The position numbers and the translations under genes are program-made. Below, one piece after another: positions 21,239 to 35,563 of a stretch of 64,000 nucleotides of DNA. This stretch comes from Candidatus Phaeomarinobacter ectocarpi. GTDB taxonomy: Bacteria; Pseudomonadota; Alphaproteobacteria; CGMCC-115125. The first letter of the stretch is position 1. Every line of letters starts with the position of its first letter. The notes under the pieces were generated by a model. That model did no database searches. It saw nothing but the letters and a program-made list of their open reading frames with translations, and had not been told where the DNA came from. The stretch lies in NCBI RefSeq assembly GCF_000689395.1, contig NZ_HG966617.1, positions 3,012,721 to 3,076,720 on the forward strand, written 5' to 3'.

Positions 21239-22104
21239 ATCGCCGCCTCCTTGGCGGCAATGGCATCCGCCACGGCCACCAGGCGTCGCGACTCTTCTGC
21301 ATGCAGCAGTTCGACCATCTTGCCGGCGACCGTGATGACGCCTTTGCCGCGCGCATCCGGCGTATCGAATGCTGCAATGATGTCCCGCGCCTCCGCCACG
21401 GCCTCAGCCGATGGCGCAAACACGTCGTTGCAGGGCGCAATCTGCGATGGGTGGATCAACGTCTTGCCGTCAAAACCAAAGTCGCGACCCTGTTCGCACT
21501 CCTCTGCAAAGCCGCTTTCATTTTTGATATCATTGTAGACACCATCAATCGCGATGCAGGCCGCATCGCGCGCTGCCAGCAATGACATCTGCAATGCCGT
21601 GAGCAACGGCGCGCGCCCGGGCACGCGTGCCGCCTTGAGTTCTTTCACAAGGTCGTTGGTGCCCATGACCAGAACACACATCAAGGGATGCTGCGCAATT
21701 TCTTGCGCTGCAAACATCGCAGCCGGTGTTTCCATCATCGCCCAGATCGGTTCGTTGGTGAGAAGGCCCGCCGCTGCATCAACGTCGCCTGGTCCGTTGA
21801 CCTTGGGAACCAGAATCCCGTCAGCCCCAATGCCATTAACGGCGCGAAGATCATCGCCCCCCCACGGCGTGTCCAGACCATTGACGCGCACAATGACTTC
21901 GCGGGGGCCATAGCCGCCGGCCTTTACGGCTGCCACCACCTGCTCCCTGGCAAGGTCCTTGGCGTCCGGCGACACCGCATCCTCAAGATCAAGGATCAAC
22001 GCATCCGCATCCAGCGTCCGGGCCTTTTCAAGCGCACGCGCATTGGCGCCGGGCATATACAAAACAGAGCGGCGGGGGCGGCCGGCATCAAACTGAGGTA
22101 GCAT
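21235..22104 (-). CDS. HpcH/HpaI-CitE family CoA-ester lyase (malyl-CoA lyase/thioesterase-like)
   Basis: 289 residues. TIM-barrel enzyme of the CitE family; magnesium and CoA-ester binding residues appear in 'RRSVLYMPGANARALEKA', 'ADALILDLEDAVSPDAK', 'IWAMMETPAAMFAAQ' and 'FDGKTLIHPSQI'. Members with this length cleave malyl-CoA or beta-methylmalyl-CoA or hydrolyse malyl-CoA. Paired with the MaoC-type hydratase it suggests part of the ethylmalonyl-CoA pathway, but the key enzyme (crotonyl-CoA carboxylase/reductase) is not in the window. Exact activity not settled. Confidence 0.82.
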   Translation of the reverse strand: MLPQFDAGRPRRSVLYMPGANARALEKARTLDADALILDLEDAVSPDAKDLAREQVVAAVKAGGYGPREVIVRVNGLDTPWGGDDLRAVNGIGADGILVPKVNGPGDVDAAAGLLTNEPIWAMMETPAAMFAAQEIAQHPLMCVLVMGTNDLVKELKAARVPGRAPLLTALQMSLLAARDAACIAIDGVYNDIKNESGFAEECEQGRDFGFDGKTLIHPSQIAPCNDVFAPSAEAVAEARDIIAAFDTPDARGKGVITVAGKMVELLHAEESRRLVAVADAIAAKEAAI

Positions 22105-22233
22105 GGTGGTTCCAACGCATTAGAAATGGGCAATATTATCGGCCCGCACCTTATGTCCCAATCGGCAATCACGCCAACAGTCACCCATCTCACACAGGCT
22201 AGCCATCACATACAGGATGATCACAAGAGCCCG

Positions 22234-23055
22234 ATGACTGTTCTCGCCATTTCATCTCAGGTCGTTGCCGGACATGTCGGCAATTCAGCAGCGCAATTCG
22301 TGCTGCAGACCCTTGGCCACGAGGTCTGGGCCATACCCACTGTCCTGCTGTCGCATCATCCCGGCCACGGCAAACCAGCTGGCCGCGGTACGCCTGCAAC
22401 TGAGATCAAAGCACTGCTGGATAGTCTATGGGCCGGCGGCTGGATGGATCAGGTCACAGCCGTCATGACCGGCTATTTCACCAGCGATGATCAGATTGAC
22501 GCTGCGGCAAACACCATCTCGCGCCTCAAACATGCGAAACCCGATCTCCCGGTGTTGATTGATCCCATACTTGGCGACAACGGCACGGTATATGTCCATG
22601 AGAGCGTCCCACCAGCCTTGCGCGATACGCTCATGCCCCTGGCCACTATCACCACGCCCAATCTGTTTGAGCTGACCACTCTGGCAGGCCTGCCCTGGCC
22701 CGTGGACGACAAGGCCAGGATTGCTGAGGCCGCGCTCAGCCTGAAAACCGCAGAACTGCTTGTGACGTCTGCTCCGGGCACGTCACGTGAGACAATCTCG
22801 ACCCTTGTCTATGCACACGACGAACACATGACGTTGGAGACACCGCGCACGCCGTCACCGCCCAACGGGATTGGCGACGTCATGGCTTCATCCTATCTGG
22901 CCATGCGGCTTCGCGGGTCGGACCCCAGAGCAGCGGCAACAGCAGCATCACGGATTGTCAGCGGGTTGATCGAGACGGCAAGCCGTCAGGCTCTTGCGGA
23001 GTTGCCACTCGTGGGCGCAGGTAACATCATCAGGAAGATCGCAGACAGCGCTTAG
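22234..23055 (+). CDS. pdxY: Pyridoxal kinase
   Basis: 273 residues. Phosphorylates pyridoxal to PLP for vitamin B6 salvage. The ribokinase-like fold shows 'MTVLAISSQVVAGHVGNSAA' at the N-terminus, 'LIDPILGDNGTVYV', and the anion-hole/catalytic segment 'PPNGIGDVMASSYLA', where the usual GTGD reads GIGD. The frame is open to 22126, but the family begins with 'VLAISSQVV', so the ATG at 22234 is chosen. The stop overlaps the stop of the Amt-kinase gene by four bases. Confidence 0.88.
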   Translation: MTVLAISSQVVAGHVGNSAAQFVLQTLGHEVWAIPTVLLSHHPGHGKPAGRGTPATEIKALLDSLWAGGWMDQVTAVMTGYFTSDDQIDAAANTISRLKHAKPDLPVLIDPILGDNGTVYVHESVPPALRDTLMPLATITTPNLFELTTLAGLPWPVDDKARIAEAALSLKTAELLVTSAPGTSRETISTLVYAHDEHMTLETPRTPSPPNGIGDVMASSYLAMRLRGSDPRAAATAASRIVSGLIETASRQALAELPLVGAGNIIRKIADSA

Positions 23056-25199
23056 GCAGCCGCTGTCTTGTTCATGACAATACGCTCAAGCGGGAAGCGG
23101 ATCGTGATAGCGGTGCCGCGACCCGGTTCGCTATCCACCACCAGCGTTGCCTGATGACTGCGGGCCAGGGCTGCGGTCAACGGAAGACCAAGGCCTGTAC
23201 CGTCAGCCTTGAACACCGTTGCATCTGCCTGCAGCTGGGCAAACGGCTCAAACGCCTTGGCAATGTCAGAGCGCGCAATGCCGACACCTGTGTCAGCGAC
23301 CTCAAGGGCAATTCGCCCGTCGGCCTCACGGCGTGCCCGCAGCGTGATGTCACCCCCCTCTGGCGTGAACTTCACGGCGTTGGATACGAGGTTGATCAGC
23401 ATCTGTTTGAGAGCACGTTCATCCGCGACAAGTCCGGGAAGGTTCGGCTCGATTTCGACAGCCAGGTTCAACTGCCCGCTTTGCGCCCGCGTCCGGATCA
23501 TGCGTTCGCACGCGACCATGACGTCACCGACATTGAGGTCGTCTTCCGCCAGATCGTAGCTGTCTGCTTCAATCTTTGAGAGATCAAGAATGTCGTTGAT
23601 GATCGACAGAAGATGGGATCCGGAGTCGTGAATGTCAGACACATACTCCTTGTACTGCTCGTTACCCAACGGACCGAACAGCTCGCTGTTGATGATTTCA
23701 GAAAATCCGATAATGGCATTGAGCGGCGTACGAAGTTCGTGGCTCATATTCGCCAGAAACTGTGACTTGGCGGCATTGGCGATCTCCGCCTGGTCGCGCG
23801 CCGTCCGCAGCTGCGCCGAAGTCTGTTCGCGCGCCGTCATCTCGCCATGCACGCGGTCCAGCACCTGATTGTACTGGGCAGCAATCTGCCCGGCTTCCGT
23901 GTAGGGCTCCACCGGCACGCGCATGGAGAAGTCACCGGTCTGCTTCTGCGTGTCCATGGCATTGATCAGGTCATGAATGGCTGTGGATGCGCCATGCTCG
24001 GATGCGTTTAGACCCATATGTTCGGCCTCGGCAGACACGCGCAGGGGGAAGAACCAGTTGATGACCGTCAATGCTGCATAGCCCACGCCGAACGCATAGA
24101 TGCCGGCAACTGTGACGCCCATCGCCTGCACACCCAGCTGTTCAAGCCGTGTATGGCCCGTGCCCCACAAGGAGGCGTCACCCAGAAGGGCCACTGCCAG
24201 CGTGCCCCAGATCCCGGCAGCCAGATGAACCGGCACCGCGCTCACGGCATCATCAATGCGATAGCGCTTGAGCAGTGCCTGGCAGCCAAGTGCCACGGCT
24301 GCACCAATACCGCCAATCAGGATGGCCGTGCCGATCGTCGCCACATGAGCGGATGCTGTAATCGCAACAAGTCCGGCCAGGACGCCATTGAGAGAATCCA
24401 CCGCGTTGGGCGCACCACGGCCGCTCCAGGTCATGCCCATAGCCGTTACACCACCTGCGGCAGCCGCAATCAGCGTGTGGACCATGATGTGCGGGACGGA
24501 GACATCCATCGCCAGCGTTGACCCGCCATTGAATCCGAACCAGCCGACCCACAGCAGAAACATGCCGAATACGGCAACCGGGGTATTGTGGGATTCCGTG
24601 GCCGAATTGTTTTCATCAAACTGGCCAAGGCGCGGACCAATGATGATCACCGCTGCCAGTGCGACCCAGCCACCGATGCTGTGCACCACAGTTGACCCGG
24701 CAAAATCGATAAACCCAAGCTCCTGCAGCCACCCCATCTGAGTATCAATGCCAAAGCCACCCCAGGCCCAGTGACCAAACACAGGGTAGATACAGGCACT
24801 CAGAATGACCGCAGTTATGAGATAGCCGCGAAAGCTCATGCGCTCAGCAACAGCGCCGGACACAATGGTCGTCGCCGTGCCGCAGAAAGCCAGCTGAAAG
24901 AAGAAGAACGCCATCAACCAGGCGCTGCTGGTGCCCTCAAAAGGGCCGGTATCAAAGAAGAAGAACGACGTGCCGAAGAGACCACCCGCCGTCGCACCGA
25001 ACATGATGCCGAACCCAACTGCCCAGAAGGCAAGACTGGCAACGCAGAAGTCCGCTACGTTTTTAACGGCAACATTGATGGAGTTCTTGGCGCGAACAAG
25101 ACCCGTTTCAAGACAGGTAAACCCTGCCTGCATGAGCAGCACCAAAACGGTGCAAACCAATAGCCAGATTGTATTATCCGTAGTGACGGGATCGCCCAT
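23052..25199 (-). CDS. Ammonium transporter fused to a sensor histidine kinase
   Basis: 715 residues. Residues about 8-385 are an Amt/Mep/Rh transporter with 11 predicted helices; the twin pore histidines are H173 ('STVVHSIGG') and H325 ('VPVHLAAGIWG'). Residues about 405-475 are a linker with HAMP-like and coiled-coil character. Then come a HisKA domain with phospho-acceptor H487 ('NMSHELRTPLNAIIGF') and a HATPase domain with N box ('INLVSNAVKFTPEGG'), G1 ('VADTGVGIA') and G2 ('GTGLGLPL'). No receiver domain is attached and no response regulator is adjacent. It may sense ammonium or its flux, as shown for Amt-kinase fusions elsewhere. Nothing is broken: one uninterrupted frame. Confidence 0.92.
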   Translation of the reverse strand: MGDPVTTDNTIWLLVCTVLVLLMQAGFTCLETGLVRAKNSINVAVKNVADFCVASLAFWAVGFGIMFGATAGGLFGTSFFFFDTGPFEGTSSAWLMAFFFFQLAFCGTATTIVSGAVAERMSFRGYLITAVILSACIYPVFGHWAWGGFGIDTQMGWLQELGFIDFAGSTVVHSIGGWVALAAVIIIGPRLGQFDENNSATESHNTPVAVFGMFLLWVGWFGFNGGSTLAMDVSVPHIMVHTLIAAAAGGVTAMGMTWSGRGAPNAVDSLNGVLAGLVAITASAHVATIGTAILIGGIGAAVALGCQALLKRYRIDDAVSAVPVHLAAGIWGTLAVALLGDASLWGTGHTRLEQLGVQAMGVTVAGIYAFGVGYAALTVINWFFPLRVSAEAEHMGLNASEHGASTAIHDLINAMDTQKQTGDFSMRVPVEPYTEAGQIAAQYNQVLDRVHGEMTAREQTSAQLRTARDQAEIANAAKSQFLANMSHELRTPLNAIIGFSEIINSELFGPLGNEQYKEYVSDIHDSGSHLLSIINDILDLSKIEADSYDLAEDDLNVGDVMVACERMIRTRAQSGQLNLAVEIEPNLPGLVADERALKQMLINLVSNAVKFTPEGGDITLRARREADGRIALEVADTGVGIARSDIAKAFEPFAQLQADATVFKADGTGLGLPLTAALARSHQATLVVDSEPGRGTAITIRFPLERIVMNKTAAA

Positions 25200-25293
25200 A
25201 CCAAACTCATCAAGACGCAGGTTGAAACAAATACCTGAGCGAGAGTTTGGTGGAAGAAGGTTAAGATTGACGGAACGTCAGTTGTGGAAATGA

Positions 25294-25329
25294 GACGGGT
25301 CCGGAGACTTTTCTTCGTCCGGACCCGTC
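25294..25329 (-). terminator. Strong hairpin after the phytanoyl-CoA dioxygenase-like gene
   Basis: GACGGGTCCGG (25294-25304) and CCGGACCCGTC (25319-25329) form a perfect 11-bp stem with a 14-base loop. On the minus strand it is followed by TCATTTCC, a weak T tract, 24 bases after the stop of the leftward gene. It probably separates that gene from the Amt-kinase gene. Confidence 0.6.
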
Positions 25330-25352
25330 ATATCTTAACAAGTGCTTAGCAG

Positions 25353-26261
25353 CTACTGGGCTTCAAGCGGAACGAAGGACCCGATCTCAGCTGACGAATT
25401 TTCCATAAGCTTCTTTGCTGTCGGCGCTTCGCGCGGCAGCCGGCCCAGGGCCAGCTCCGGGGGGACCGTGTCCGGAATGTCCGGATTAGGCTGCGGTGGA
25501 CTGAAGTAGCCAAGAGCGTAAGACCCCATGGTGTACCCAAGTAGCTCCTGAAGCTCTGGGGCCAGTGTCTTGGCAACCTCAGGGGGACAGGACAGATACT
25601 GGTTTTCTTCCGTCCGCAGCCAACCAAGGCAATAGGTGATGTTCATGCCCACGCGTGGTGCCTGCGACTTGTTTTCACCGCCACTGTGAATGACCGAGCC
25701 TGTATACAGCAGCACCGAGCCACGCGGCATCACTGCCTGACACACTTCCTCAGGTTCAGCCTGGCGCTTCTCGTCCCATTTGTGGCTGCCCGGCACCACC
25801 TGCGTCGCACCATTTTCCTCGGTGAAGTCCGTCAGTGCCCAGATCGTATTGAACTGCGGCTCGATGTCCGGCAGGTAGCCACCCCACGCAAGCCTGTCGC
25901 GATGAAGAGGCTGCTTGCCCTGCCCCGGCAACAGCCGGATGAGCTGCGTCAGATGCAACTGGATCCGATCGCAGTAAGGCAGCAGGAAGTTATTGGCCGC
26001 TTCAAGAACAGTAGAGTTCATGACAGCCTCACGACAGGCTGGCGAGCGCGAGACAAGCGCGCCCGTCCGCGTCGTATTGTGACCCGTGAACGCATCATTG
26101 CCTTTGGCGGACGCATCCATCAGCGGTTGCGTCTCCGCATCAATGCGCGCGAACAACCCATCATCAAGCGCACCCGTCAAAATCATCGCGCCATCGCGAT
26201 CCATGATCTTGGCAATGTCTTCCTGCGAGGCCGTTGCCGGCAGGCTTGTCAGTTCAGGCAT
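25353..26261 (-). CDS. Phytanoyl-CoA dioxygenase (PhyH) family protein
   Basis: 302 residues. Fe(II)/2-oxoglutarate dioxygenase fold: iron ligands H120 and D122 ('QPLHRDRLAWGG') and H192 ('GSVIHSGGENKS'), and a 2-oxoglutarate-binding arginine R203 in 'APRVGMNITY'. Substrate unknown; the family hydroxylates acyl-CoAs and many small molecules. The TetR gene lies immediately upstream (nine bases between its stop and this start), so TetR probably controls this gene as well as itself. Confidence 0.88.
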   Translation of the reverse strand: MPELTSLPATASQEDIAKIMDRDGAMILTGALDDGLFARIDAETQPLMDASAKGNDAFTGHNTTRTGALVSRSPACREAVMNSTVLEAANNFLLPYCDRIQLHLTQLIRLLPGQGKQPLHRDRLAWGGYLPDIEPQFNTIWALTDFTEENGATQVVPGSHKWDEKRQAEPEEVCQAVMPRGSVLLYTGSVIHSGGENKSQAPRVGMNITYCLGWLRTEENQYLSCPPEVAKTLAPELQELLGYTMGSYALGYFSPPQPNPDIPDTVPPELALGRLPREAPTAKKLMENSSAEIGSFVPLEAQ

Positions 26262-26270
26262 TGGTGTCTC

Positions 26271-26852
26271 CTATCTGAGCGAACTGTTTGGGTCATGCGC
26301 TGCCATCAGCGGCAGCATCAACGCTGAAACCGTTTTACGCATGCGCGTCATGTCCCAGGCGTCGGGCTCCATCGCCACCCGCACGGCGATGCCGTCCACG
26401 CCGGCAATCATGGCATCGGCAACGGTCTGCGGATCGCTAACACCGCCCGCTTCAAGCTCAAGACGCAGTGAGTAGGCAAGCGCCTCATACCCTGCGCGAT
26501 GCCGCTCCCGAAACGCCGGATCACTGACCCCGCGTCCCCAGAATTGCAGGAACACCCGCCACTCCCGCGCAGTCTCTTCGTCATGCGGCAGATAGGTCAT
26601 GGCGCGATCCACCGGGTCCATGCCGCGCGTTTGTTCAAGGCGCTCGGCATTGCGCAACCCAACCTGATCAAAGGCCGCCAGCAACACATCGTCCTTGTTG
26701 TTGAGATAGTGGACCACAGCTCCGGTGGTCAGCTTGGCCTCGCGGGCCACATCCACCAGCCGGACGCTGTCGAGCCCGTGGGTATCAATGGCAACAACTG
26801 CTGCTTCAGCAAGCTGGGAACGGCGCTGATTATGGTCGACTTGTTTTGGCAT
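26271..26852 (-). CDS. TetR family transcriptional regulator
   Basis: 193 residues. N-terminal helix-turn-helix: 'RRSQLAEAAVVAIDTHGLDS' then 'VDVAREAKLTTGAVVHYLNN', typical of TetR, and a ligand domain containing 'AREWRVFLQFWGRG'. The BetI-like C-terminal region ('AMIAGVDGIAVRVAME') suggests that branch. The frame continues to 26954, but the ATG at 26852 begins the usual 'MPKQVDHNQRR' arm. A perfect small palindrome overlaps this start codon. Probably autoregulated and controlling the dioxygenase-like gene downstream. Confidence 0.88.
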   Translation of the reverse strand: MPKQVDHNQRRSQLAEAAVVAIDTHGLDSVRLVDVAREAKLTTGAVVHYLNNKDDVLLAAFDQVGLRNAERLEQTRGMDPVDRAMTYLPHDEETAREWRVFLQFWGRGVSDPAFRERHRAGYEALAYSLRLELEAGGVSDPQTVADAMIAGVDGIAVRVAMEPDAWDMTRMRKTVSALMLPLMAAHDPNSSLR

Positions 26853-26887
26853 AATGGTAATTATATAAAAAGCATCTCGTCTCGCAA
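26851..26887 (-). promoter_or_regulatory. Promoter and operator of the TetR gene
   Basis: On the minus strand TTGCGA (26887-26882), 16 bases, and a perfect TATAAT (26865-26860) form a promoter whose start point would fall at or next to the ATG at 26852, implying a leaderless mRNA. The palindrome ATAAT-GGTA-ATTAT (26851-26864) overlaps both the -10 box and the start codon, a good place for autorepression. Confidence 0.6.
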
Positions 26888-26962
26888 CCCCAAAATGCGG
26901 CTGGGCCGATCCTGATCTCTCAGAACCGGCCCACCCAGATGTCGTCGACGGCAAAAGCGGCC

Positions 26963-27985
26963 TTAAGCAGCTTTCGCCAGATACTTCGTGTTCAGCAACT
27001 CGGCGATCTGCACCGCATTGAGCGCTGCGCCCTTGCGCAGATTGTCAGACACAACCCATAGCGCCAGACCATTGTCCACGGTCGGGTCCGTGCGGATGCG
27101 GCTGACGAATGTCGCAAAGTCACCCACGCACTCAACCGGCGTGACATAGCCGCCGTCTTCGCGCTTATCCACCACCAGGATGCCCGGCGCCTCACGCAGA
27201 ATGTTGCGCGCTTCCTTGTCGGAGATCGGCTTGGCGAACTCGATATGAACCGCTTCGCCATGGCCCACAAATACCGGCACGCGCACGGACGTGGCCGTAA
27301 GCTTGATCTTGGGATCAAGGATCTTCTTGGTCTCGACGGTCATCTTCCACTCTTCAGTGGTGTAGCCGTCCTCCATGAAGTCGCCCCCATGGGGGATCAC
27401 GTTGAACGCGATCTGCTTGGGATAGATCGACTTCTCGATCGGATCATTCACAAACACAGCGCGGGTCTGGTTGAACAGCTCATCCATCGCATCCTTGCCG
27501 GTGCCCGACACCGACTGATAGGTCGACACAACCACGCGCTCGATCTGGGCTGCGTCATGCAGCGGCTTCAGCGCCACCACCAGCTGCGCCGTTGAGCAGT
27601 TGGGATTGGCGATGATGTTCTTTTTGGCGTAGCCCGCAATCGCGTCCGCATTCACTTCCGGCACAATGAGGGGCACATCCGGGTCCGTCCGCCATGTGGA
27701 TGAGTTGTCGATGACAACCGCCCCCTGCTTGGCGATTTTCGGTGACCATTCCTTCGACACACCGCCGCCTGCAGACATCATCACGATGTCCGTGTCGGAA
27801 AAGTCAAAATTCTCCAGCGCCTGACACTTCAGTGTCCTGTCGCCATAGGACACTTCCTTGCCCTGGCTACGGCGCGAGGCAATGGCCACAACTTCAGTGG
27901 CGGGAAACTGACGCTCTTCGAGAATATTGAGCATCTCATGCCCGACATTCCCTGTGGCGCCCACAACTGCAACTTTCAAACCCAT
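26963..27985 (-). CDS. asd: Aspartate-semialdehyde dehydrogenase
   Basis: 340 residues. Makes aspartate semialdehyde, the branch-point precursor of lysine, threonine, methionine and isoleucine, and of the cell-wall diaminopimelate. NADP-binding 'VAVVGATGNVGHEML' is at the N-terminus, the catalytic cysteine is C130 in 'IANPNCSTAQLV', and the active-site histidine lies in 'VPVFVGHGEAVHIEF'. Length and start are normal; GTTAAGGAACAG precedes the ATG. A 350-base leader upstream carries a Thr-rich leader peptide and alternative hairpins. Confidence 0.96.
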   Translation of the reverse strand: MGLKVAVVGATGNVGHEMLNILEERQFPATEVVAIASRRSQGKEVSYGDRTLKCQALENFDFSDTDIVMMSAGGGVSKEWSPKIAKQGAVVIDNSSTWRTDPDVPLIVPEVNADAIAGYAKKNIIANPNCSTAQLVVALKPLHDAAQIERVVVSTYQSVSGTGKDAMDELFNQTRAVFVNDPIEKSIYPKQIAFNVIPHGGDFMEDGYTTEEWKMTVETKKILDPKIKLTATSVRVPVFVGHGEAVHIEFAKPISDKEARNILREAPGILVVDKREDGGYVTPVECVGDFATFVSRIRTDPTVDNGLALWVVSDNLRKGAALNAVQIAELLNTKYLAKAA

Positions 27986-28023
27986 CGGTTCTGTTCCTTA
28001 ACGTCTCTGTCTCTTCCGCACCC

Positions 28024-28073
28024 GCCTGCTTCAACAGGCAAAGCCCCAACTCGTCTGCTCTTGCCTCAAGAGC
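28024..28073 (-). promoter_or_regulatory. Mutually exclusive hairpins in the asd leader (attenuator-like)
   Basis: Read on the minus strand, GCTCTTG (28073-28067) pairs with CAAGAGC (28063-28057) around a three-base loop. The overlapping AGGCAA (28066-28061) can instead pair with TTGCCT (28041-28036), and GCCTG (28039-28035) can pair with CAGGC (28028-28024). This is the 1:2, 2:3, 3:4 layout of amino-acid attenuators. The last stem is not followed by a U tract, so control may act on translation or by another termination mode. Confidence 0.5.
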
Positions 28074-28109
28074 CGGCAGAAGAGAGGACAAGCGGCGCAA
28101 GGGGCAGGA

Positions 28110-28250
28110 TCAGACGGTGATACCCGTCTTGGTTTTGGTGGTCGGAGTGGTGATGGTGGCCGGCGAACACGCAAGATCGCCCGCAAGCGCGCCAACAAAA
28201 CGGGCGTCTCGCGCGGTCAAAAACTCAGGGCTCATCTCATGCTTGGCCAT
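28110..28250 (-). CDS. Thr/Ile/Lys-rich leader peptide upstream of asd
   Basis: 46 codons from ATG (28250) to TGA (28110), too short for routine gene finding. The last 16 residues read ATITTPTTKTKTGITV: eight threonines, two isoleucines and two lysines, all end products of the pathway that asd feeds. This closely resembles the Thr/Ile-rich thrL leader peptide of enterobacteria. A GGA about five bases before the ATG is a weak ribosome site; an in-frame ATG at codon 6 is an alternative start. A small stem, AGACGG/CCGTCT (28112-28117, 28124-28129), covers the last codons and stop. I infer ribosome stalling at Thr codons when charged tRNA is short. Confidence 0.65.
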   Translation of the reverse strand: MAKHEMSPEFLTARDARFVGALAGDLACSPATITTPTTKTKTGITV

Positions 28251-28279
28251 CAAGGTCCAATTTCCATCAATTTCCGGCG

Positions 28280-28310
28280 CTTATATGTCACCGCACACCC
28301 ATTCAGTCAA
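28280..28310 (-). promoter_or_regulatory. asd: Probable promoter of the asd leader transcript
   Basis: On the minus strand TTGACT (28310-28305) and TATAAG (28285-28280), spaced by 19 bases, resemble a sigma-70 type promoter. The transcript would start about 25-30 bases before the leader-peptide ATG. The spacer is slightly long, so the assignment is tentative. Confidence 0.45.
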
Positions 28311-28337
28311 TGAAAGGCGCGTGGGCTGCAGCCATGC

Positions 28338-29039
28338 CTAAAAGGCTGAGGTGCCACCAAATTTCAGCTTCCGTACGGTCCGTTCCAGCCCCTCGTCAAA
28401 CACAGCCTCAATGCTCTTTTGAATCTGCTCCTGCTCGACATCCGTATAACTGGCTGGATTCTCCTTGAATTCGACCGGTAGCGGCATGCACGGGCCATCC
28501 CATGAGTTGAAGCCCCACTCCCATGCCAGCCGGTCGCCGGTGTCCGCATCAAGAACCCGAACGACAGTCTGCTGGTAGGCACAGTTCTGTCCCATTCCAA
28601 AAGTAGACTTACGGTAGACCCCATACCCCGGCGTCACATAGGGATAGTTGTCGTAGCCGGACGGGTGAATGACGGCGACAGCGTCAAAACCCTGCTCTTT
28701 GGCTGCCGCCAGAAGAGCCGCAGGCGAACTGGCGAAAAGATCCCGATCAAGACCTTCGGCATCGATGACGCCAACCCGCCCCGGCAACGGACCTGCATCA
28801 AGATATTTGGCAAGCGTCGCTTCCGCAAAGCCTGGAACATCCCAATCTGTTACGTCGACCTTCTGGCGTTTATTTTCAAAAATGAGCGTCCCGACAAAAT
28901 CGTGTTGCCGCATGTTTGACAGGGCAGACGTGACACCCAGCCGCTGGATACCCGCGACATCCTCGGCATCCATCGTCCGGTCCAGCGTCGCACACCCCGC
29001 CACAAACATGGCCAGACCTGCGGCAATTGCCGTCTTCAC
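28338..29039 (-). CDS. Predicted lipoprotein of unknown function
   Basis: About 233 residues starting at the GTG at 29039 (MKTAIAAGLAMFVAGC), which gives a compact leader with a lysine, a hydrophobic core and the lipobox 'FVAGC'; in-frame TTG codons up to 29066 are alternatives. The mature protein has 'FENKRQKVDVTDWDVPGF' and a segment rich in Tyr/Pro/Gly ('YDNYPYVTPGYGVYRK'), plus two cysteines ('GQNCAYQQ' and 'DGPCMPLP') that may be bonded. No named family recognised. Its start region abuts the divergent small-lipoprotein genes. Confidence 0.65.
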   Translation of the reverse strand: MKTAIAAGLAMFVAGCATLDRTMDAEDVAGIQRLGVTSALSNMRQHDFVGTLIFENKRQKVDVTDWDVPGFAEATLAKYLDAGPLPGRVGVIDAEGLDRDLFASSPAALLAAAKEQGFDAVAVIHPSGYDNYPYVTPGYGVYRKSTFGMGQNCAYQQTVVRVLDADTGDRLAWEWGFNSWDGPCMPLPVEFKENPASYTDVEQEQIQKSIEAVFDEGLERTVRKLKFGGTSAF

Positions 29040-29195
29040 ATGATCAATCAATCCACTCACTCCCAAAAACTCAATCTGCCCAAATCACTCAACCTGATAA
29101 TCGCACCATCATACCCAATCACCACTGCTCACCAACATATGATACGCTCAAGGCGCGCGGGGGTGGATAAGGTTGTGGTCCAAGGAGATGACCTC

Positions 29196-29456
29196 ATGAC
29201 ACCAACGAAAACAGGCGCCCTGGCCCTCATCTGTACGCTGGGTCTAGCGCTATCAGCCTGTGCCGGCGACCGCTCCGAGCAGATCGCGGCACAAAACGAG
29301 ATCGACCATCAAAACTGCCTCGAGCTTGGCTTCGAGGAAGGCACGGAAGCCTATGGCAACTGCCGCTTGAAACTGCGCGAGATCCGTGCCGCAGAAAGCC
29401 AGCGCGACAGTGGCGGCAATTTTGGTGTCGGCATCGGCATTGGCATCGGGCTTTAG
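29196..29456 (+). CDS. Small lipoprotein with a two-cysteine motif, copy 1
   Basis: 86 residues from the ATG at 29196, preceded by AAGGAG at eight bases. Leader 'GALALICTLGLALSAC' gives a lipobox with the cysteine at residue 22. The mature part contains 'NCLELGFEEGTEAYGNCRLK', a C-x3-GF-x2-GTxAxxxC pattern I associate with small alphaproteobacterial envelope proteins, and ends in an oscillating Gly-Ile run ('VGIGIGIGIGL'). Adjacent, six bases downstream, is a clear paralogue. Function unknown. Confidence 0.75.
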   Translation: MTPTKTGALALICTLGLALSACAGDRSEQIAAQNEIDHQNCLELGFEEGTEAYGNCRLKLREIRAAESQRDSGGNFGVGIGIGIGL

Positions 29457-29462
29457 GAGGCA

Positions 29463-29756
29463 ATGATGACCCGCATCCTGCTCGCCGCAGCGCTTGCCCT
29501 CACCGTCTCAGCCTGCGCCACGGCTGAAGACCGCGCCGCCCGCGCCCAGGCACAACTGGCCGCCGACAAGGCCGAGTGCCAGACCCTCGGCTTCACGCCG
29601 GACACCGAAGCCTTCAGCAATTGCCTGCTCAAACTGCGCGAAATCCGCGCCGAGGAAGCCGCCGCCATCGAGCAGCGCCGCGCCAACAACCGCGCCATCT
29701 GGGGCCCCGACTGGCCGTGGTACTACAATCGCGGCTATCGGCACCGTCGCTGGTAG
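29463..29756 (+). CDS. Small lipoprotein with a two-cysteine motif, copy 2
   Basis: 97 residues; GGAGG immediately precedes an ATGATG start, so either ATG may be used. Lipobox 'LTVSAC'. The motif 'ECQTLGFTPDTEAFSNCLLK' followed by 'LREIRAEE' aligns with the upstream gene ('LREIRAAE'), showing a tandem duplication. The C-terminus differs: an Arg/Trp/Tyr-rich end ('WPWYYNRGYRHRRW') that could contact membrane or cell wall. Function unknown. Confidence 0.75.
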   Translation: MMTRILLAAALALTVSACATAEDRAARAQAQLAADKAECQTLGFTPDTEAFSNCLLKLREIRAEEAAAIEQRRANNRAIWGPDWPWYYNRGYRHRRW

Positions 29757-29787
29757 CGGCAATATCGCCCATCCAAATTCGGCCTTC

Positions 29788-29806
29788 CCTCCGGCGTGAC
29801 CGGAGG
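29788..29806. repeat. Intergenic palindrome, CCTCCGG family (copy a)
   Basis: CCTCCGG (29788-29794), five-base centre, CCGGAGG (29800-29806), between the small lipoprotein gene and the convergent leuB. One of several related palindromes with a CTTGA/TCAAG-like centre in this window; it may act as a bidirectional terminator. Confidence 0.6.
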
Positions 29807-29828
29807 AAGAGCGGAAAGGTGTGGATGC

Positions 29829-30932
29829 CTAGTTGGTCGCCATCTCTTCCACAACCGCGCGACCCATCTGCGATGTCGACACCTTGGTCATGCCGTCCTG
29901 CATGATGTCCCCGGTGCGCAGACCCTTGTCCAGCACGGACGTGATCGCGCCTTCCAGCTTGTCTGCCACGTCGCCCATGTTGAACGAATAGCGAAGACAC
30001 ATGGCCAGGCTCGACAGCATGGCGATGGGGTTGGCAATGCCGTTGCCCGCAATGTCAGGAGCTGACCCATGCACCGGCTCGTACAGCGACTTGCGTTTGC
30101 CATTGGCGTCCGCCGCACCCAGCGACGCGGACGGCAGCATGCCCAGCGAGCCGGTCAGCATGGCAGCCACATCCGACAGCATGTCACCGAACAGATTGTC
30201 CGTGACGATCACATCAAACTGCTTGGGCGCCCGCACCAGCTGCATGCCGCCCGCATCTGCCAGCATGTGGGTCAGCTCAACGTCCTGATAATCCCGCTTG
30301 TGCACTTCGGTCACGACTTCATTCCACAGCACGCCGGACTTCATGACGTTGCGCTTCTCCATGGAGCAGACGCGGTTGTCGCGGGTGCGCGCAATGTCAA
30401 AGGCTGCCGCAGCAATACGTTCAATCTCGTAGGTGTCATAGACCTGCGTATCGATGCCGCGGCGCTGACCGTTTTCAAGCTCGATGATTTCCTTGGGCTC
30501 ACCGAAGTAAACCCCACCCGTCAGCTCACGGACGATCAGAATGTCGAGCCCCTCAACAAGCTCCTTCTTCAGCGAAGAGGCTTCCGCCAGCGCACCAAAG
30601 CAGATGGCCGGGCGCAGATTGGCAAACAGTTCCATGTCCTTGCGCAAACGCAAAAGACCGGCTTCCGGCCGCACATCGTAGGGCACGTCATCCCACTTGG
30701 GGCCGCCGACAGCACCAAACAGCACCGCATCCGCTGCCATGGCCCGCGCCATGTCGTCTTCGGAGATCGATAGCCCATGAGCGTCATAAGCGGCACCGCC
30801 GACGAGGCCTTCTTCCACCTCAAAGGACGTCAGCCCCTGGCTGTTCATCCACTCAATGGCGCGGCGCACTTCGCCCATGACTTCAGGGCCAATGCCGTCG
30901 CCGGGCAGAAGGAGGATTTTCTGGGTCGCCAT
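29829..30932 (-). CDS. leuB: 3-Isopropylmalate dehydrogenase
   Basis: 367 residues. Oxidative decarboxylation of 3-isopropylmalate in leucine synthesis. '[20 protein letters not shown]' at the N-terminus, '[12 protein letters not shown]' style metal-site sequence, '[12 protein letters not shown]' and '[19 protein letters not shown]' (NAD specificity region) are all present. The frame is open to 31238, but the family start is the ATG at 30932 with GGAGGA-like sequence upstream. Here leuB is separated from leuC/leuD by 5 kb of other genes, rather than being adjacent. Confidence 0.96.
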
Positions 30933-31037
30933 GGGACTATGTCTCCGCACTAAAATATCGTGTTCCGTTGGCCGGGTTCCTAGCAGGGCACGAGGCCTGA
31001 TGCCAGTACCCCCTTCCTCCGCCCCCTCAACCCCGCC

Positions 31038-31060
31038 ATCCTCCGGCTTGACCGGGGGAT
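31038..31060. repeat. Intergenic palindrome, CCTCCGG family (copy b)
   Basis: ATCCTCCGG (31038-31046), centre CTTGA, CCGGGGGAT (31052-31060), one mismatch in the stem. Lies upstream of leuB and belongs to the same family as the palindromes at 29788, 35472 and 35521. Confidence 0.6.
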
Positions 31061-31090
31061 CCATGCCACGCTCGTGACACGGGGAGGTGG

Positions 31091-31113
31091 ATTGTCCGGT
31101 CGAGCCGGACAAT
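31091..31113. repeat. Intergenic palindrome, CCGGTCGAGCCGG variant (copy c)
   Basis: ATTGTCCGG (31091-31099) and CCGGACAAT (31105-31113), a perfect nine-base stem around TCGAG. Thirty bases from copy b; same core design with different outer arms. Confidence 0.6.
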
Positions 31114-31174
31114 GGCGTCGATAGGGCTAACCCATGCCTGACCACCTCACAGCCCCATGGCTGCAAGGAGAAAG

Positions 31175-31582
31175 ATGGGATGGCAGGAGCACCGCCCAAA
31201 GGCAGCATGTCCGTGTCTGATGCATTCAGCGCAATCAAGCGCGTCCGGCTACCTGATGGCAGCGCTCCTGCGCGGATGGTCTTCGGCGCCGACCGTCTCC
31301 ACCGGTGAGCCCGGGTGTTACCCGGTGACCCGCCCGATGCTGCTTTTGTACCGGTCTATCCCTCGTATGAGACGCGAGAACCGCCGGGGCCCGAGAGGAC
31401 GCAAGGGCCAGCAGAGTCGTCACCGCCATATCGCTGAAGTCCGTTACCCTTCAGCACGCCTGATGACATCCCGCCCGTGTCCCTGTTGGGCAGTCATCAC
31501 CACGCTCCATGGCATCCGCCCTCCCACCCAGCACCCGGACGGTCCGGACTGCCCAAAAGCAGGAGGCATGCGAGAAGTATGA
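31175..31582 (+). CDS. Unassigned open frame (or part of a non-coding RNA) upstream of leuB
   Basis: 135 codons from an ATG with AAGGAG four bases upstream to a TGA that lies just before a plus-strand terminator. The conceptual protein (starting [14 protein letters not shown]) is rich in Arg, Pro, Ser and Cys, has no recognisable domain, and its codon third positions are not clearly G/C-biased like neighbouring genes, so coding is doubtful. The same DNA contains several local inverted repeats (for example CCGGGT/ACCCGG near 31318-31332 and GCAGCAT/ATGCTGC enclosing about 31202-31342). A structured RNA is an equal possibility. The whole 30933-31659 gap holds no recognisable family. Confidence 0.25.
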
Positions 31583-31584
31583 GG

Positions 31585-31621
31585 CCCCGCGAGAGACCGG
31601 GGATAAGTTTTTGAACTTTTT
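31585..31621 (+). terminator. Probable intrinsic terminator in the gap upstream of leuB
   Basis: CCCCG (31585-31589) and CGGGG (31598-31602) form a stem followed by two T tracts (GTTTTTG and CTTTTTT). It indicates that something is transcribed rightward through 31160-31580. It could instead act as a spacer between the two leftward genes, but the T tracts are on the plus-strand side. Confidence 0.5.
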
Positions 31622-31659
31622 TGAAACCAACCTGACACCAAGGCCGGACAGACAGGAGA

Positions 31660-32313
31660 TCAGCTCCCGATCACCAGTTCCTGAGAGGGTGCAGTCGTGC
31701 CTGCCTGCTCGAGAATGTCATGGTTCTGCCACGGCATAGGGCCAATGGCAGCCAGTCGCTGAGGCTCATCCATCTGGCAGATATCCCCGTTGCGGCTGAT
31801 GGTTGCCCGCTCCAGGCCTGGCTTGTCCTCGGCTGTTGCAACCACCGGATGCAGCGCGCCCAAGACCTTGCTGACCGAAAACACAAGAGCATCCGCCGGG
31901 AATGTGTTTTCCGGCTGCGCGGTCACTTCGATTTCGGCAGACGGCAACCCGCTCGCCGACCCCATCTGTTTTAAATGCGCTGGGTAGGAGTAGAAGCAGC
32001 GCATCGACAGGTGGATCTTATCGATAACGAAAACCGCGTTTCCCGAGGCCTGCGCCATTTCAGCCGCACGGGTAATCAGGATCGCAACCGCCCGCTCATA
32101 TGAGGTCGCTCCAGAAGCAGCGACCTCGACCTTGAAACGGTTCGGAGCCAGGACCTCGTCTTTGTAACCGCCAGCGTAAGTCCAGAAGTTGTAAGGTTTG
32201 AGGACCACTGGCTGTATGGTGTCGACCTTGTACCGCCCGCCGCCCTTCGAGGTGCAGGCGACCAGCAATCCGCTGGCAAACACAATCAACCCAATCTTTA
32301 AGAGTCCTGACAT
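31660..32313 (-). CDS. CC0125/CC1285-like lipoprotein
   Basis: 217 residues with lipobox 'LLVACTS' (cysteine at about residue 20). The mature part has 'YAGGYKDEVLAPNRFKVEV', 'AVAILITRAAEMAQASGNAVF', the pattern of the CC0125/CC1285 family of alphaproteobacterial lipoproteins: a GY-x-D-x3-x3-NRF motif followed by an 'RAAEL/M' helix. Function of the family is not known to me. It is third in a leftward row with a TerB-like gene and a second family member at 32839. Confidence 0.75.
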   Translation of the reverse strand: MSGLLKIGLIVFASGLLVACTSKGGGRYKVDTIQPVVLKPYNFWTYAGGYKDEVLAPNRFKVEVAASGATSYERAVAILITRAAEMAQASGNAVFVIDKIHLSMRCFYSYPAHLKQMGSASGLPSAEIEVTAQPENTFPADALVFSVSKVLGALHPVVATAEDKPGLERATISRNGDICQMDEPQRLAAIGPMPWQNHDILEQAGTTAPSQELVIGS

Positions 32314-32419
32314 TCTTCACCCCCAATGCGTGCAATAGCGGCCAGTCTGATCATGCAACTGGCATCGCGCAAGGCGTGCTAAATTAAATGTTTGAAAGCC
32401 CGTAACGGTTGCGGCCGGG

Positions 32420-32827
32420 CTAGAGCGCGCCCTTTTCAAGACCAAGCGCCATCGCAATCCGGTCCAGCGCGTGCTCTTCCTGCGGTGAAATTGCCTGATC
32501 CGCAATCACCGCCACCCGCGCTGCGTGCTTCACCGCCCGCCTTTCCACCTCGTGCTCCTTGATGGATGCAATGGACACCAACACATCGAGCGCAGTCGCT
32601 TCATAATCATCGGGAAAAGCCTGCATCAGCTCTGCCATCTCTGCCGCCAGGACCGCCTGATCAAAACGCTTGAACGCTTCATCCGCCGCCAGCTCACTGA
32701 TCAGCCGCCCTTCTTCCACAGGCGCAAACTGACCATCGGAATAGGCGACCAGAAGATAAGCACCGCAGATGGCGTGAATGGCGATCTCAGCCTGTGAGCG
32801 GATCGCGGGCTTCTTGAAAGACGTCAT
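32420..32827 (-). CDS. TerB-like (tellurite resistance TerB family) protein
   Basis: 135 residues, all helical. 'YLLVAYSDGQFAPVEEGRLI' and 'HEVERRAVKHAARVAVIADQ' followed by 'ISPQEEHALDRIAMALGL' match the TerB/DjlA-N-like fold with paired acidic segments that can bind metal. A frame open to 32956 exists, but the ATG at 32827 begins the domain and lies 11 bases after the stop of the upstream gene. Function unknown; TerB-like proteins often act near membranes in stress responses. Confidence 0.7.
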   Translation of the reverse strand: MTSFKKPAIRSQAEIAIHAICGAYLLVAYSDGQFAPVEEGRLISELAADEAFKRFDQAVLAAEMAELMQAFPDDYEATALDVLVSIASIKEHEVERRAVKHAARVAVIADQAISPQEEHALDRIAMALGLEKGAL

Positions 32828-32838
32828 AGGCGATGGCC

Positions 32839-33891
32839 TCAGTTGGATGCGGGGCGAGCGGGACGGGCGAGGATGTTGTAGGTATCCCATGGATAGACAG
32901 AACCACCAGTCAGGCGCGTTATGCCGCACGACTCCGCGTTTTTCAGGTACATCCACCGCCGCGATTTATCACTGGGTGTGTTCTGGCGGACCACATGGCG
33001 CATGATCGAATTGATCTTCTCGACAGACATGACGTTGAAATCATCGGGAAAATCGCCGGGTGTATCTGCCGCCATGAAGGTGACAGTCAGGCTCGTGTGG
33101 ATCCCCGCTGTCGTACAGGGTGCGCGCGCGACTAGATCATTTGTCCCAAGGTAGGCAAAGCCATTCGCACTTGCCATGCCCGCTGCCTCTAGAACGGCCA
33201 ACTGGGCCAGGCGGGATGGCTGTGTAAATCCCGTCGTCGCCGCACTCATTTCAATTCGCTGATCGGTCAACACATTCACCGTCAACGTCTCATCGAACAT
33301 GATCGGTGAGGACAAACTGATCTCCTGGCCTTCCAATATATTGTAGTAGTGCCAAGGACGGAGCGTCTGCCGTTCAAACCCACCTGTACACAAACGGTGG
33401 TTCGCCCGCCCCACTTCCTTAGGCGGCAGACCGGTTACCTCTCCTTCGGTAACGGCGGGATAGAGATTAGCGAGCACCTTCTCCACCGAAATGACGACTG
33501 CATTATTGTCAAAACTATCCGGCGGACCAGCAATCCCGAGACCTTCTACATTGGCACTCCCACTCGGTCTGTTCGCATGCGAAGGCAAGCAGGTGATCTC
33601 GCTCTCAACGCTCTTGATGATGAAATGTGTGTGGCCGCGTTCGTTGGAAAGTTCTGCAACGCGCGTAACAAGGATCGACAGCATGTGGACATGCGAACTG
33701 ATCGACACGCCACCGGTCCAGACCCTGAATGTATTCTCGTCGACAATGTCCTCCCGGTAGCCCGTTTCTGCACCAACCGTGATCATGCCGCGCTTCTTGT
33801 ATTCATGAGCAGCATGGGCAGCCGTGGCGTGCGCGACCAGCCAGACCGCCGCCATCACCCCTGCACCAAGGCGCGACATGAGATCACCCAT
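32839..33891 (-). CDS. Secreted protein with two CC0125/CC1285-like repeats
   Basis: 350 residues from the ATG at 33891 (GGGGA seven bases upstream; 33879 is an alternative). Signal peptide ending 'HATAAHA'. The N-terminal half has 'TGYREDIVDENTFRVWTGG' and 'LSILVTRVAELSNERGHTHF', clearly the same motif as the lipoprotein at 31660. The second half contains 'MFDETLTVNV' and 'LAQLAVLEAAGMASANGFAY', a degenerate second copy of the same unit. It lacks a lipobox. First gene of a three-gene row with the TerB-like protein and the lipoprotein. Confidence 0.7.
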   Translation of the reverse strand: MGDLMSRLGAGVMAAVWLVAHATAAHAAHEYKKRGMITVGAETGYREDIVDENTFRVWTGGVSISSHVHMLSILVTRVAELSNERGHTHFIIKSVESEITCLPSHANRPSGSANVEGLGIAGPPDSFDNNAVVISVEKVLANLYPAVTEGEVTGLPPKEVGRANHRLCTGGFERQTLRPWHYYNILEGQEISLSSPIMFDETLTVNVLTDQRIEMSAATTGFTQPSRLAQLAVLEAAGMASANGFAYLGTNDLVARAPCTTAGIHTSLTVTFMAADTPGDFPDDFNVMSVEKINSIMRHVVRQNTPSDKSRRWMYLKNAESCGITRLTGGSVYPWDTYNILARPARPASN

Positions 33892-34274
33892 CAATCTGTC
33901 CCCACATTCTCAAAAAAACACCGCAACCAGTCACACGTTCACGGCAACGAGCTTTGTCGGCAGATGGAACCATGTCAATGCGGGCACCCGAAGCTTGATC
34001 CCGATCATGTACACAGACCTGGAAAACCCGTACCGTCATTTCCACACAGATATGAAACCAACACAGGAGAAATTTGTGACTGCCATTGTGCTCCAGCCCG
34101 CTGGTGGACCCACAGGATAAGACAGCACCCAACGCGTGCTTCTGGGTCAGGCATTTATGCTGACCGCCCTGTCACCAGCCCTTTTTGGAACGTCACCTCC
34201 GGACATTTCCGGCGGTGGACCTGTGTTCGCCCTGCGCCCGGCCATCCGGAGTTGCAGAAGCTGGTAGACCAACA
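33892..34274. other. Intergenic region between divergent genes
   Basis: About 380 bases, somewhat A/T-richer in its left half, serving as the upstream region of both the leftward CC0125-like gene and rightward rsgA. A short plus-strand frame ending at 34120 has no family features or good ribosome site. No clear promoter or repeat recognised. Confidence 0.5.
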
Positions 34275-35369
34275 ATGACAACGCGAATTTCCACCCAAAT
34301 CTCCACCTTGGCCGATCTCGGCTGGACCAATTTCTTTCTCTCTCAACTCGATGCCGATGAGCTGGCAGCCCCTGCCCGCGTCATGTCCGTGCATCGCACC
34401 AAGATGGACGTCATGGGATGCGGCCCGGATCAGGTGCCGTTTGAAAAAACCATCATGCCCTTCAGCGAACCTGACGACCCCGACGACGGGTCGCCGGGGC
34501 GCGCCGCAACCGTCGGCGACTGGGTGCTGCTTGATCCCGTTACCGGGCAGGCGCACCGGCTGCTGGACAGAACAAGCGTGTTCAAGCGCAAGGTGGCCGG
34601 TCATGAGCGTAAGGAGCAGCTCATCGCGGCCAATGTGGACACGCTCTTTGTCGTCACATCCTGCAATCAGGATTTTAACGTGGCGCGGCTGGAGCGATAT
34701 CTGGCGCTTGCTCAGGATGCCGGCGTAACACCGGTCATCATCCTGACCAAAGCCGATCTGACAGACGATCCGCGCGACTATGAGCAGCAGGCCATGGGGC
34801 TGATGCCCGGCATCGTCGTGGAAATGCTTGATGCCCGCGATCCGGACCAGATCGCCAGTCTGCTGCCCTGGTGCACAACAGGTCAGACGGTGGCCTTTGT
34901 CGGGTCGTCCGGCGTTGGCAAGTCAACCCTGATCAACACCCTGACCGGCCAGGACTCCATTGAGACCGCAGGCATTCGCGAGGACGACGCCAAGGGACGC
35001 CACACAACCACCAGCAGGCAGTTTCACCGGCTGGCCTCCGGCGCGTGGTTACTGGACACCCCGGGCATGCGCGAGTTGCAGCTCACCGATGTGCAGGACG
35101 GCATTGATGCTGTGTTTGCAGATGTGGTGGCACTGGCCGAAGACTGCCGCTTCAAGGACTGTCAGCACGAGACCGAGCCCGGCTGTGCCGTCACGGCCGC
35201 CATTGACGCAGGCACCCTCGACCCCAAACGCCTGCACCGCTGGCGTAAGCTCGCCCTCGAAGACCAGCACAACACCCAGACCATCGCCGAGCGCCGCTCC
35301 CACGAAAAATCCTTCAAGAAAATGGTCAAGCGCACCGTCGCCCAGAAAAAACGGTTTCGCGACGACTGA
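34275..35369 (+). CDS. rsgA: Ribosome small-subunit-dependent GTPase A
   Basis: 364 residues. Late 30S maturation factor with a circularly permuted GTPase. An OB-fold N-terminus is followed by the permuted motifs: G4 'ILTKADL' (157-162), G1 'GSSGVGKST' (210-218), G2 'HTTT' (243-246), G3 'DTPGMRE', and a zinc-binding knuckle C291, C296, H298, C304 ('CRFKDCQHETEPGC'). The ATG at 34275 gives a normal N-terminus; longer frames are unsupported. A basic C-terminus ends 'AQKKRFRDD'. Confidence 0.94.
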   Translation: MTTRISTQISTLADLGWTNFFLSQLDADELAAPARVMSVHRTKMDVMGCGPDQVPFEKTIMPFSEPDDPDDGSPGRAATVGDWVLLDPVTGQAHRLLDRTSVFKRKVAGHERKEQLIAANVDTLFVVTSCNQDFNVARLERYLALAQDAGVTPVIILTKADLTDDPRDYEQQAMGLMPGIVVEMLDARDPDQIASLLPWCTTGQTVAFVGSSGVGKSTLINTLTGQDSIETAGIREDDAKGRHTTTSRQFHRLASGAWLLDTPGMRELQLTDVQDGIDAVFADVVALAEDCRFKDCQHETEPGCAVTAAIDAGTLDPKRLHRWRKLALEDQHNTQTIAERRSHEKSFKKMVKRTVAQKKRFRDD

Positions 35370-35378
35370 TTCACCCTC

Positions 35379-35409
35379 AAAAAAGGCGGCGCTCATCACG
35401 AGCGCCGCC
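35379..35409 (-). terminator. Terminator at the end of the leuC-leuD operon
   Basis: GGCGGCGCT (35385-35393) and AGCGCCGCC (35401-35409) form a nine-base stem; on the minus strand it runs into six T (complement of 35379-35384). It ends leftward transcription from leuD and lies only 10 bases after the rsgA stop, so it may also slow rightward transcription. Confidence 0.8.
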
Positions 35410-35471
35410 TACCGGCAGATCAATAAACAGATACCTCTTACCGCTCTTCCTCCGGCTTGGTGACCCTTTAG

Positions 35472-35492
35472 CCCTCCGGCTTGACCGGAGGG
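35472..35492. repeat. Intergenic palindrome, CCCTCCGG family (copy d)
   Basis: CCCTCCGG, centre CTTGA, CCGGAGGG: a perfect eight-base stem. Its exact reverse complement lies 29 bases further on. Confidence 0.7.
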
Positions 35493-35520
35493 GGAGGACC
35501 CATCTGACCCTCCGCATGGC

Positions 35521-35541: not shown

Positions 35542-35563
35542 AAAGCGGGAGAGGGAGCAGGCG

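Follow-up and report, generated by a model that had tools for sequence, protein, structure and literature searches.

The minus strand of the 64,000-nucleotide stretch of Candidatus Phaeomarinobacter ectocarpi DNA analysed here (the window, to which all coordinates refer) carries a short, Thr-rich frame ahead of asd, the gene for aspartate-semialdehyde dehydrogenase, which makes the branch-point compound for lysine (and cell-wall diaminopimelate), threonine, methionine and isoleucine. A first, sequence-only reading of this DNA had identified both gene and frame, and both identifications hold: the asd product scores 514 bits against NF011456 (cut-off 223) and 454.6 bits against TIGR01296 (cut-off 324.2), and the frame runs over 46 codons from 28250 to 28110, with eight Thr, two Ile and two Lys in its tail. 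Its stop codon (28112-28110) lies 124 nt from asd. In order of transcription, the parts of the region are:

28282-28310, minus strand: candidate promoter-like site, TTGACT (28310-28305), 17 nt, CATATA (28287-28282); from sequence
28253, minus strand: alternative start of the leader ORF, an in-frame TTG; from sequence
28110-28250, minus strand: putative leader peptide ORF, 46 codons and stop; from sequence, with counterparts in G001, G002 and G003
28113-28160, minus strand: putative control codons, the Thr/Lys-rich tail ATITTPTTKTKTGITV, in which the last Thr is the penultimate codon; from sequence and survey
28092-28109, minus strand: segment A, directly 3' of the stop codon, near-invariant in the genus, able to pair with C (CUUGC:GCAAG); from alignment and complementarity
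28072-28086, minus strand: segment B, CTCTCTTCTGCCGGC, invariant in four genus sequences; from alignment
28050-28065, minus strand: segment C, GGCAAGAGCAGACGAG, pairing with B (as a hairpin) or with A; from complementarity and swap test
28025-28039, minus strand: third short hairpin, GCCTG-TTGAA-GCAGGC, with no U tract after it and not kept in G001; from sequence and folding
28011-28019, minus strand: segment D, GCGGAAGAG, complementary to B, 25 nt before the asd start; from complementarity
27994-27999, minus strand: probable Shine-Dalgarno sequence of asd, AAGGAA; from sequence
26963-27985, minus strand: asd, aspartate-semialdehyde dehydrogenase, the presumed regulated gene; from profile matches

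The sequence-only reading had paired TTGACT with a TATAAG, which would leave a spacer of 19 nt; TTGACT can be kept, but CATATA at 17 nt fits better, and by eye the same layout recurs in G001 as TTGACG-17-CATATA. The site is called a candidate because a strict sigma-70 consensus scan found no site upstream of the leader. It lies 30-60 nt 5' of the leader ATG, and asd therefore probably has its own transcript. The three overlapping stems described earlier fare less evenly: overlapping complementary segments are present, but the region from leader to asd folds no better than its shuffles (z -0.77; 42 of 200 shuffled versions did as well), so that the stems alone are no evidence.

Some neighbouring features deserve mention in their own right. 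A 242-aa frame (28338-29066, minus strand) that begins like a lipoprotein and matches nothing in Pfam lies between leuB and asd. Two adjacent small putative lipoproteins (29040-29456 and 29463-29756, plus strand), also without Pfam match, have a common motif (CLELGFEEGTEAYGNCRLKLREIRA / CQTLGFTPDTEAFSNCLLKLREIRA) and are possible tandem duplicates. At 23052-25199 (minus strand), a 715-aa frame combines an ammonium transporter domain with a histidine kinase (PF00909, PF00512, PF02518), an Amt-sensor kinase.

Thr/Lys tails in the genus and the class

The frame is present in all four distinct genus genomes compared (three of the sequences are nearly alike, and L031 duplicates L003), and its gaps are whole codons. 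Counted from the first in-frame ATG, GTG or TTG, the genus leaders are 42-53 aa long; the N-terminus drifts and the Thr/Lys tail is kept. Between L001 and G001, 62 of 95 aligned bases are identical in the N-terminal part of the ORF (65%, with 38 gap columns), 28 of 39 over the last 12 codons and stop (72%, gapless), 36 of 46 over the 46 nt 3' of the stop (78%, gapless), 48 of 77 over the remainder to asd (62%, 20 gap columns) and 77 of 90 over the first 90 nt of asd; in the alignment, a near-invariant genus block extends from the last leader codons through CTCTCTTCTGCCGGC. The comparison with related genomes that the sequence-only reading had proposed thus comes out in its favour as regards the Thr codons, which are conserved beside a drifting N-terminus, but covariation is not demonstrable within the genus: no compensating double change could be shown among the four sequences, three of them near-alike, and matched stem partners are evident only in the wider set, by the swap test described below.

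Upstream regions were surveyed at 211 asd loci (208 placed, 205 distinct upstreams), any upstream ORF being scored by the number of Thr and Lys in its last 14 codons. L124, L126 and L143, whose asd match began late, were left out (their best scores are 1, 1 and 2, and none has a leader), and L033 and L148 (score 6) were judged to be tails of upstream genes. A score of at least 7 is reached by 27 of the 205 distinct upstreams against none of 4080 dinucleotide shuffles (maximum 6), the other 178 sampled upstreams scoring below 7; 27 of 205 is not a prevalence, because the sample is uneven, its 80 named loci being the best asd matches of one scan and its class draw (261 of 289 genomes with an asd match) being taken from the top of the list by identity. 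The window leader scores 9, above the maximum of the 4080 shuffles, and its Thr-rich tail, earlier read as a sign of a leader peptide, is to that extent above chance. On the antisense strand, the maximum is 5. Among 190 amino-acid pairs, KT ranks first (27) and AR second (21), and a looser 12-codon window gives 28 of 203 upstreams against 8 of 4060 shuffles.

The 27 high scorers come from seven class-draw families (f1, f2, f38, f44, f71, f102, f140) and from named loci, and comparable frames in other Alphaproteobacteria end about 100-140 nt 5' of asd. Tails are alike across families (KTTKTTKTV, TTKTTKTV, APTTTKKTKTVA, ETKTKTKKTTV, ATTKTATKTTGKTTGV, KTTTTKTKTTKTGR) and whole peptides are dissimilar: lengths range from 10 to 77 aa, and the N-termini are seemingly unrelated between families. 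In 52 of 53 leaders, all chosen by tail score, the last Thr or Lys falls within two codons of the stop. Isoleucine makes up 1.2% of the last 14 codons in these 53 leaders and 4.7% of the remaining codons of those ORFs, a figure that shows only that there is no regular Ile addition, because the leaders were picked for a Thr/Lys tail. The conserved code, as predicted from these tails, is Thr plus Lys, and isoleucine is not part of it; the earlier suggestion that Thr, Ile and Lys are sensed survives for Thr and Lys but not for Ile.

A second sample was reached through L082 (Aestuariivirga sp.): in this family, G303, 52 of 60 genomes have asd at the cut-off, and of the 50 upstreams scored, 31 score at least 7 (1 of 1960 shuffles) and 47 at least 5 (61 of 1960 shuffles). 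No Thr/Lys leader was found before asd in the Methylobacterium bullatum, Ruegeria sp. TM1040 and Sphingomonas parapaucimobilis records, nor does any same-strand ORF upstream of hom, lysC or dapA in the window's own genome reach a score of 7. Among loci with leuB ending no more than 200 nt from asd, a leader is found in 0 of 50, and among the others in 49 of 190 (p 5e-6), a limit picked after the distances had been seen; without a distance limit the position test is not significant (p 0.26 and 0.37). The pattern is consistent with a leader tied to asd genes that have their own promoter, and a short leuB-asd spacing also leaves little space for a leader.

Two further loci were noticed in passing. 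In L317 (Azospirillum brasilense p1), a Thr-rich short ORF (MNRSLAITTTTTKTTRSGG...), missed by the tail-based score and caught by the 12-codon window, precedes a GC hairpin (GGCCCCGCCGGACACGGACGGGGCC) and then an asd relative that is more distant (48% identity). In L189 (G228), a possible asd leader with Thr and one Trp, ATTTWTTITTTASVKTMKVKM, ends 154 nt before asd.

Terminators, pairing partners and ribosome positions

The sequence-only reading had remarked that the final stem has no U tract, and this is so for the whole minus-strand interval: with a terminator defined as a stable hairpin between leader and asd that has at least 5 T among the 8 nt after it, none was found in the window or its genus. 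The sole candidate, in G002, is a weak structure (-7.3 kcal/mol) inside other stems and falls outside this definition. Such terminators occur in 9 of 64 distinct leaders (76 loci) and are absent from the other 55, the window's genus included. L167 has a textbook 2:3 / 3:4 arrangement, its stop being followed by CGCGGGCCT (2), AGGCCTGCGG (3) and CCGCGGGCCTTTTTC (4). Over the 20 nt that follow the stop, C makes up 53% and G 18% in 39 leaders without U tract, and 30% and 33% in 7 leaders with one. As a separate observation, L248, L250, L252, L255 and L277 have GGGG(G)...CCCC(C) about 50 nt after the leader stop, then 0-1 nt and 3-5 U; these elements, found in a subset of the G303 family and also in L097, look like a weak terminator-like remnant, as if between two forms.

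In the swap tests, a segment's own partner was set against the partners of other species, with the reversed partner as composition control. The set held leaders scoring at least 6 with a stop 95-150 nt before asd (L033, L148, L058, L104 and L317 were left out); near copies were removed, this being the sole control for kinship, which left 46 leaders, 7 with and 39 without a terminator. Segment A was taken as the first 16 nt after the stop, and its window shares 6 nt with that of B. For the 7 U-tract leaders, the own-partner effect for 2x3 is -3.75 kcal/mol (p 0.003; reversed control p 0.44). For the 39 U-less leaders, it is -2.12 kcal/mol for AxC (p <0.0002; reversed control p 0.06) and -1.84 kcal/mol for BxC (p 0.0002; reversed control p 0.23). 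Between the post-stop RNA and the asd ribosome-site region of the same 39, it is -0.81 (p 0.11; B part p 0.09); the A part reaches p 0.036, but its reversed control reaches p 0.012. On these p values, the predicted competition of A and B for C in U-less leaders is supported across the set, and pairing with the asd ribosome site is not; the long-range pairing of segment D is likewise without support in the wider leader set. With transcripts ended after C and A masked, B pairing rises in 26 of the 39 U-less leaders and in 4 of the 7 with a U tract, and falls in none, a gain that is partly built in, since masking A removes a competitor by construction.

Within the G303 family, the swap test is coarse, and pairs for which no pairing is expected (AxB, Bxg, AxD) also reach p 0.01-0.03. 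RNAalifold gave almost no consensus (-3.6 kcal/mol) on a 46-sequence alignment of the family (L251, L288, L289 and L290 left out), in our opinion because the helices slide. By eye, a g:D2 helix (UGGC/GCCA, GCCCG/CGGGC, UGGCCG/CGGCCA) and B:D1 seemingly covary in L271, L275, L281 and L286, and together they would form a pseudoknot near the asd ribosome site; this candidate, B:D1 across g:D2, is no more than a lead, g:D not being confirmed (p 0.6) and B:D being supported in the family's swap test.

Equilibrium folding, of the whole leader and under ribosome masking, yielded no decisive switch and is weak evidence. Moving the ribosome from the first Thr/Lys codon to the stop raises a B:C-type hairpin by more than 0.2 in three of four genus members, and in only 1 of the 11 leaders first grouped as terminator-type, among which L011 and L191 do not count as terminator-bearing under the later U-tract definition. 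The same gain is seen in 7 of 46 G303 members, and the strongest hairpin, often A:C there, is lost in 25 of 46; the equilibrium hairpin model is a weak guide. Mean opening energies of the asd start at the successive ribosome positions are 7.8, 7.3 and 7.5 in the genus and 7.0, 6.3 and 6.7 in the G303 family, shifts of less than 1 kcal/mol in what is again a weak test. With a stall at the last Thr/Lys codon, the opening energy falls from 6.7 to 3.9 in G001, and the asd start opens more easily in 23 of 46 G303 members and less easily in 9 of 46.

Possible modes of action

The reading preferred here, to which a probability of about 0.8 is given, is that the leader belongs to a ribosome-mediated attenuator coupling asd to the supply of charged tRNA-Thr and tRNA-Lys; that Thr and Lys would be sensed by a ribosome reading the leader before asd is very likely. 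The attenuator proposed earlier from this one sequence is supported by the Thr-rich frames at the same place in relatives and by the classical attenuators of some lineages. The leader would be translated while RNA polymerase is still close. With ample Thr and Lys, the ribosome would reach the stop codon and cover A, and B would pair with C; a ribosome stalled on the Thr/Lys codons would leave A free to take C ahead of B, and asd would be on. The replete state would be a plain intrinsic terminator in several lineages, and in the window's genus and most other leaders an equivalent hairpin without U tract, which would lower asd expression mainly via transcription and less by covering the asd ribosome site. 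We infer from sequence that Thr and Lys are sensed and which way the switch works. As for the output in the genus, U-less or Rho-assisted termination is somewhat favoured, because the RNA just after the stop is C-rich and G-poor; an output through translation is rather unlikely, and something besides termination or translation would be the other alternative.

Translational attenuation, in which the post-leader RNA would hide the asd ribosome site and stalling would free it, transcription being unchanged, has several observations in its favour. There is the missing U tract in window and genus, and there is the purine-rich segment D, 25 nt before asd, whose complementarity to A and B is strong in the genus (duplexes of -18 to -29 kcal/mol); in the G303 family, a leader's own B:D pairing beats the swapped ones (p <0.0005; A:D p 0.0145), and the easier opening of the asd start under a last-codon stall, in half of that family and in G001, points the same way. 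Set against these are the lack of significance of the long-range pairing across the 39 non-redundant U-less leaders and the small shift of mean opening energy with ribosome position, and segment D presumably ends upstream of the usual 30S footprint, which also counts against this explanation; on balance it is rather unlikely. Less probable again is a purely factor-dependent control, with Rho loading on the C-rich RNA after the stop, leader translation gating access and no A:C/B:C switch at all: the base composition after the stop in U-less as against U-tract leaders is what it would predict, but the A:C and B:C partners are matched beyond their reversed controls, and a bare rut site would not need such matching.

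The two remaining alternatives concern the frame itself. It is very improbable that it encodes a small protein with its own function, placed before asd incidentally: its probable S. meliloti counterpart, SEP5, was detected as a tagged protein (according to passages of PMC10117765), but what is kept is mainly the Thr/Lys tail, on N-termini and lengths that differ widely between families, and neither the window nor the S. meliloti peptide has a Pfam or NCBIfam match. A chance low-complexity frame is barely credible. Thr-rich frames do arise at a low rate in shuffles (8 of 4060, on the loose score), and others exist in the same genome, where AMNx6 shows no enrichment (37 sites; its reversed control has 86) and inspection of all 37 sites led to four distinct short ORFs with a Thr/Lys tail (score at least 7). 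Only two of those four have a frame of at least 100 aa within 400 nt downstream, however, one being the asd leader and the other lying before a 149-aa frame, and conservation and position across genus, class and G303 family contradict chance.

If the attenuator exists as proposed, a leader reading Thr and Lys codons would give two branch products a simple means of repressing the step they share. One attenuator that exists both with an intrinsic terminator and without a U tract would also supply natural pairs, making the working of the U-less form directly testable. More broadly, and tentatively, the leaders may represent a widespread, formerly unrecognised family of Thr- and Lys-sensing asd attenuators, mostly with a U-less A:C/B:C switch that would pass control to Rho or to a hairpin without U tract, by which two branch end products would jointly set the common step without regulator protein or riboswitch.

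Relation to known leader peptides

Rfam gave no match in window positions 20000-36000 at gathering, nor in 27980-28330 at E up to 5, and over 13 related loci its sole match was a tRNA gene in L248; the element is therefore not filed as a gammaproteobacterial Thr leader (presumably Rfam RF00506), a lysine riboswitch or a T-box. It resembles a leader-peptide attenuator in its proposed working and shows most of the features that sequence can reveal. Because an intrinsic terminator was looked for and is absent in the window, it is filed as a leader-peptide attenuator variant and not as a standard transcription attenuator. With the thrL/thr operon attenuator of gammaproteobacteria, whose leader has Thr and Ile codons and regulates thrABC (as described in part of PMC12925634), it has in common a leader rich in Thr codons before aspartate-family genes, and in some of the window's relatives the U-tract form follows the same 2:3 / 3:4 logic. 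The window differs in its gene, asd, in its Thr plus Lys codons, and in having neither an Rfam match nor a U tract.

Leader peptides of the same class include rnTrpL/peTrpL of S. meliloti, whose control codons are Trp, and the ilvB leader, which concerns branched-chain amino acids. The former, treated in passages of PMC10117765 as an alphaproteobacterial leader-peptide attenuator, differs in acting on trpE and in its leaderless ORF; the latter, mentioned as known in Alphaproteobacteria in a passage of PMC1273637 (citing Vitreschak et al. 2004), likewise precedes an amino-acid synthesis gene, though another one.

The closest likeness is to SEP5 of S. meliloti (Hadjeras et al. 2023, PMC10117765), a small ORF in a 5' UTR in which six Thr and three Lys codons lie towards the 3' end. 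Its translation was seen by Ribo-seq and by Western blot of the tagged protein; in the relevant passages, the authors guess it to be a leader peptide, hold it conserved only in Sinorhizobium and term the downstream gene 'aspartate dehydrogenase' (PMC10117765). In S. meliloti Ak57 (L312, CP090106.1), a hypothetical protein annotated directly 5' of aspartate-semialdehyde dehydrogenase ends in ARKTTAKTTTKTV, and its six Thr and three Lys agree with SEP5 in count and place; SEP5 is equated with this ORF because of that match, not by an accession, and the ORF seen to be translated as SEP5 is very probably a counterpart of the frame in the window. (Although CP090106.1, 3.7 Mb, is titled plasmid pSymB of S. 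meliloti Ak57, asd and genes for ribosomal proteins lie on it, and the record may be a chromosome under a wrong label.) The S. meliloti tail recurs in Sinorhizobium sp. C101 and Shinella, and Rhizobium sp. NLR16a has AKTKAKTTTKTV; in S. meliloti, Sinorhizobium sp. C101, Shinella and Rhizobium, the Thr/Lys tails end in TTTKTV, 110-113 nt before asd. The pattern of putative Thr/Lys leaders extends beyond one genus.

The sequence-only reading knew of no such attenuation of asd in alphaproteobacteria; the S. meliloti member had been proposed as a leader peptide in 2023 (PMC10117765); a literature search with most subscription papers outside its scope found no other report on an asd leader peptide. 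SEP5 and the window's frame are alike as Thr/Lys-coded small ORFs before asd, and they differ in that the SEP5 passages of PMC10117765 give no RNA switch and no wider family. A Thr/Lys leader of asd would explain SEP5 and would widen its pattern from one genus to many families: what appears to be new here is the wider family of putative Thr/Lys leaders before asd, to which SEP5, already proposed as a leader peptide, would belong.
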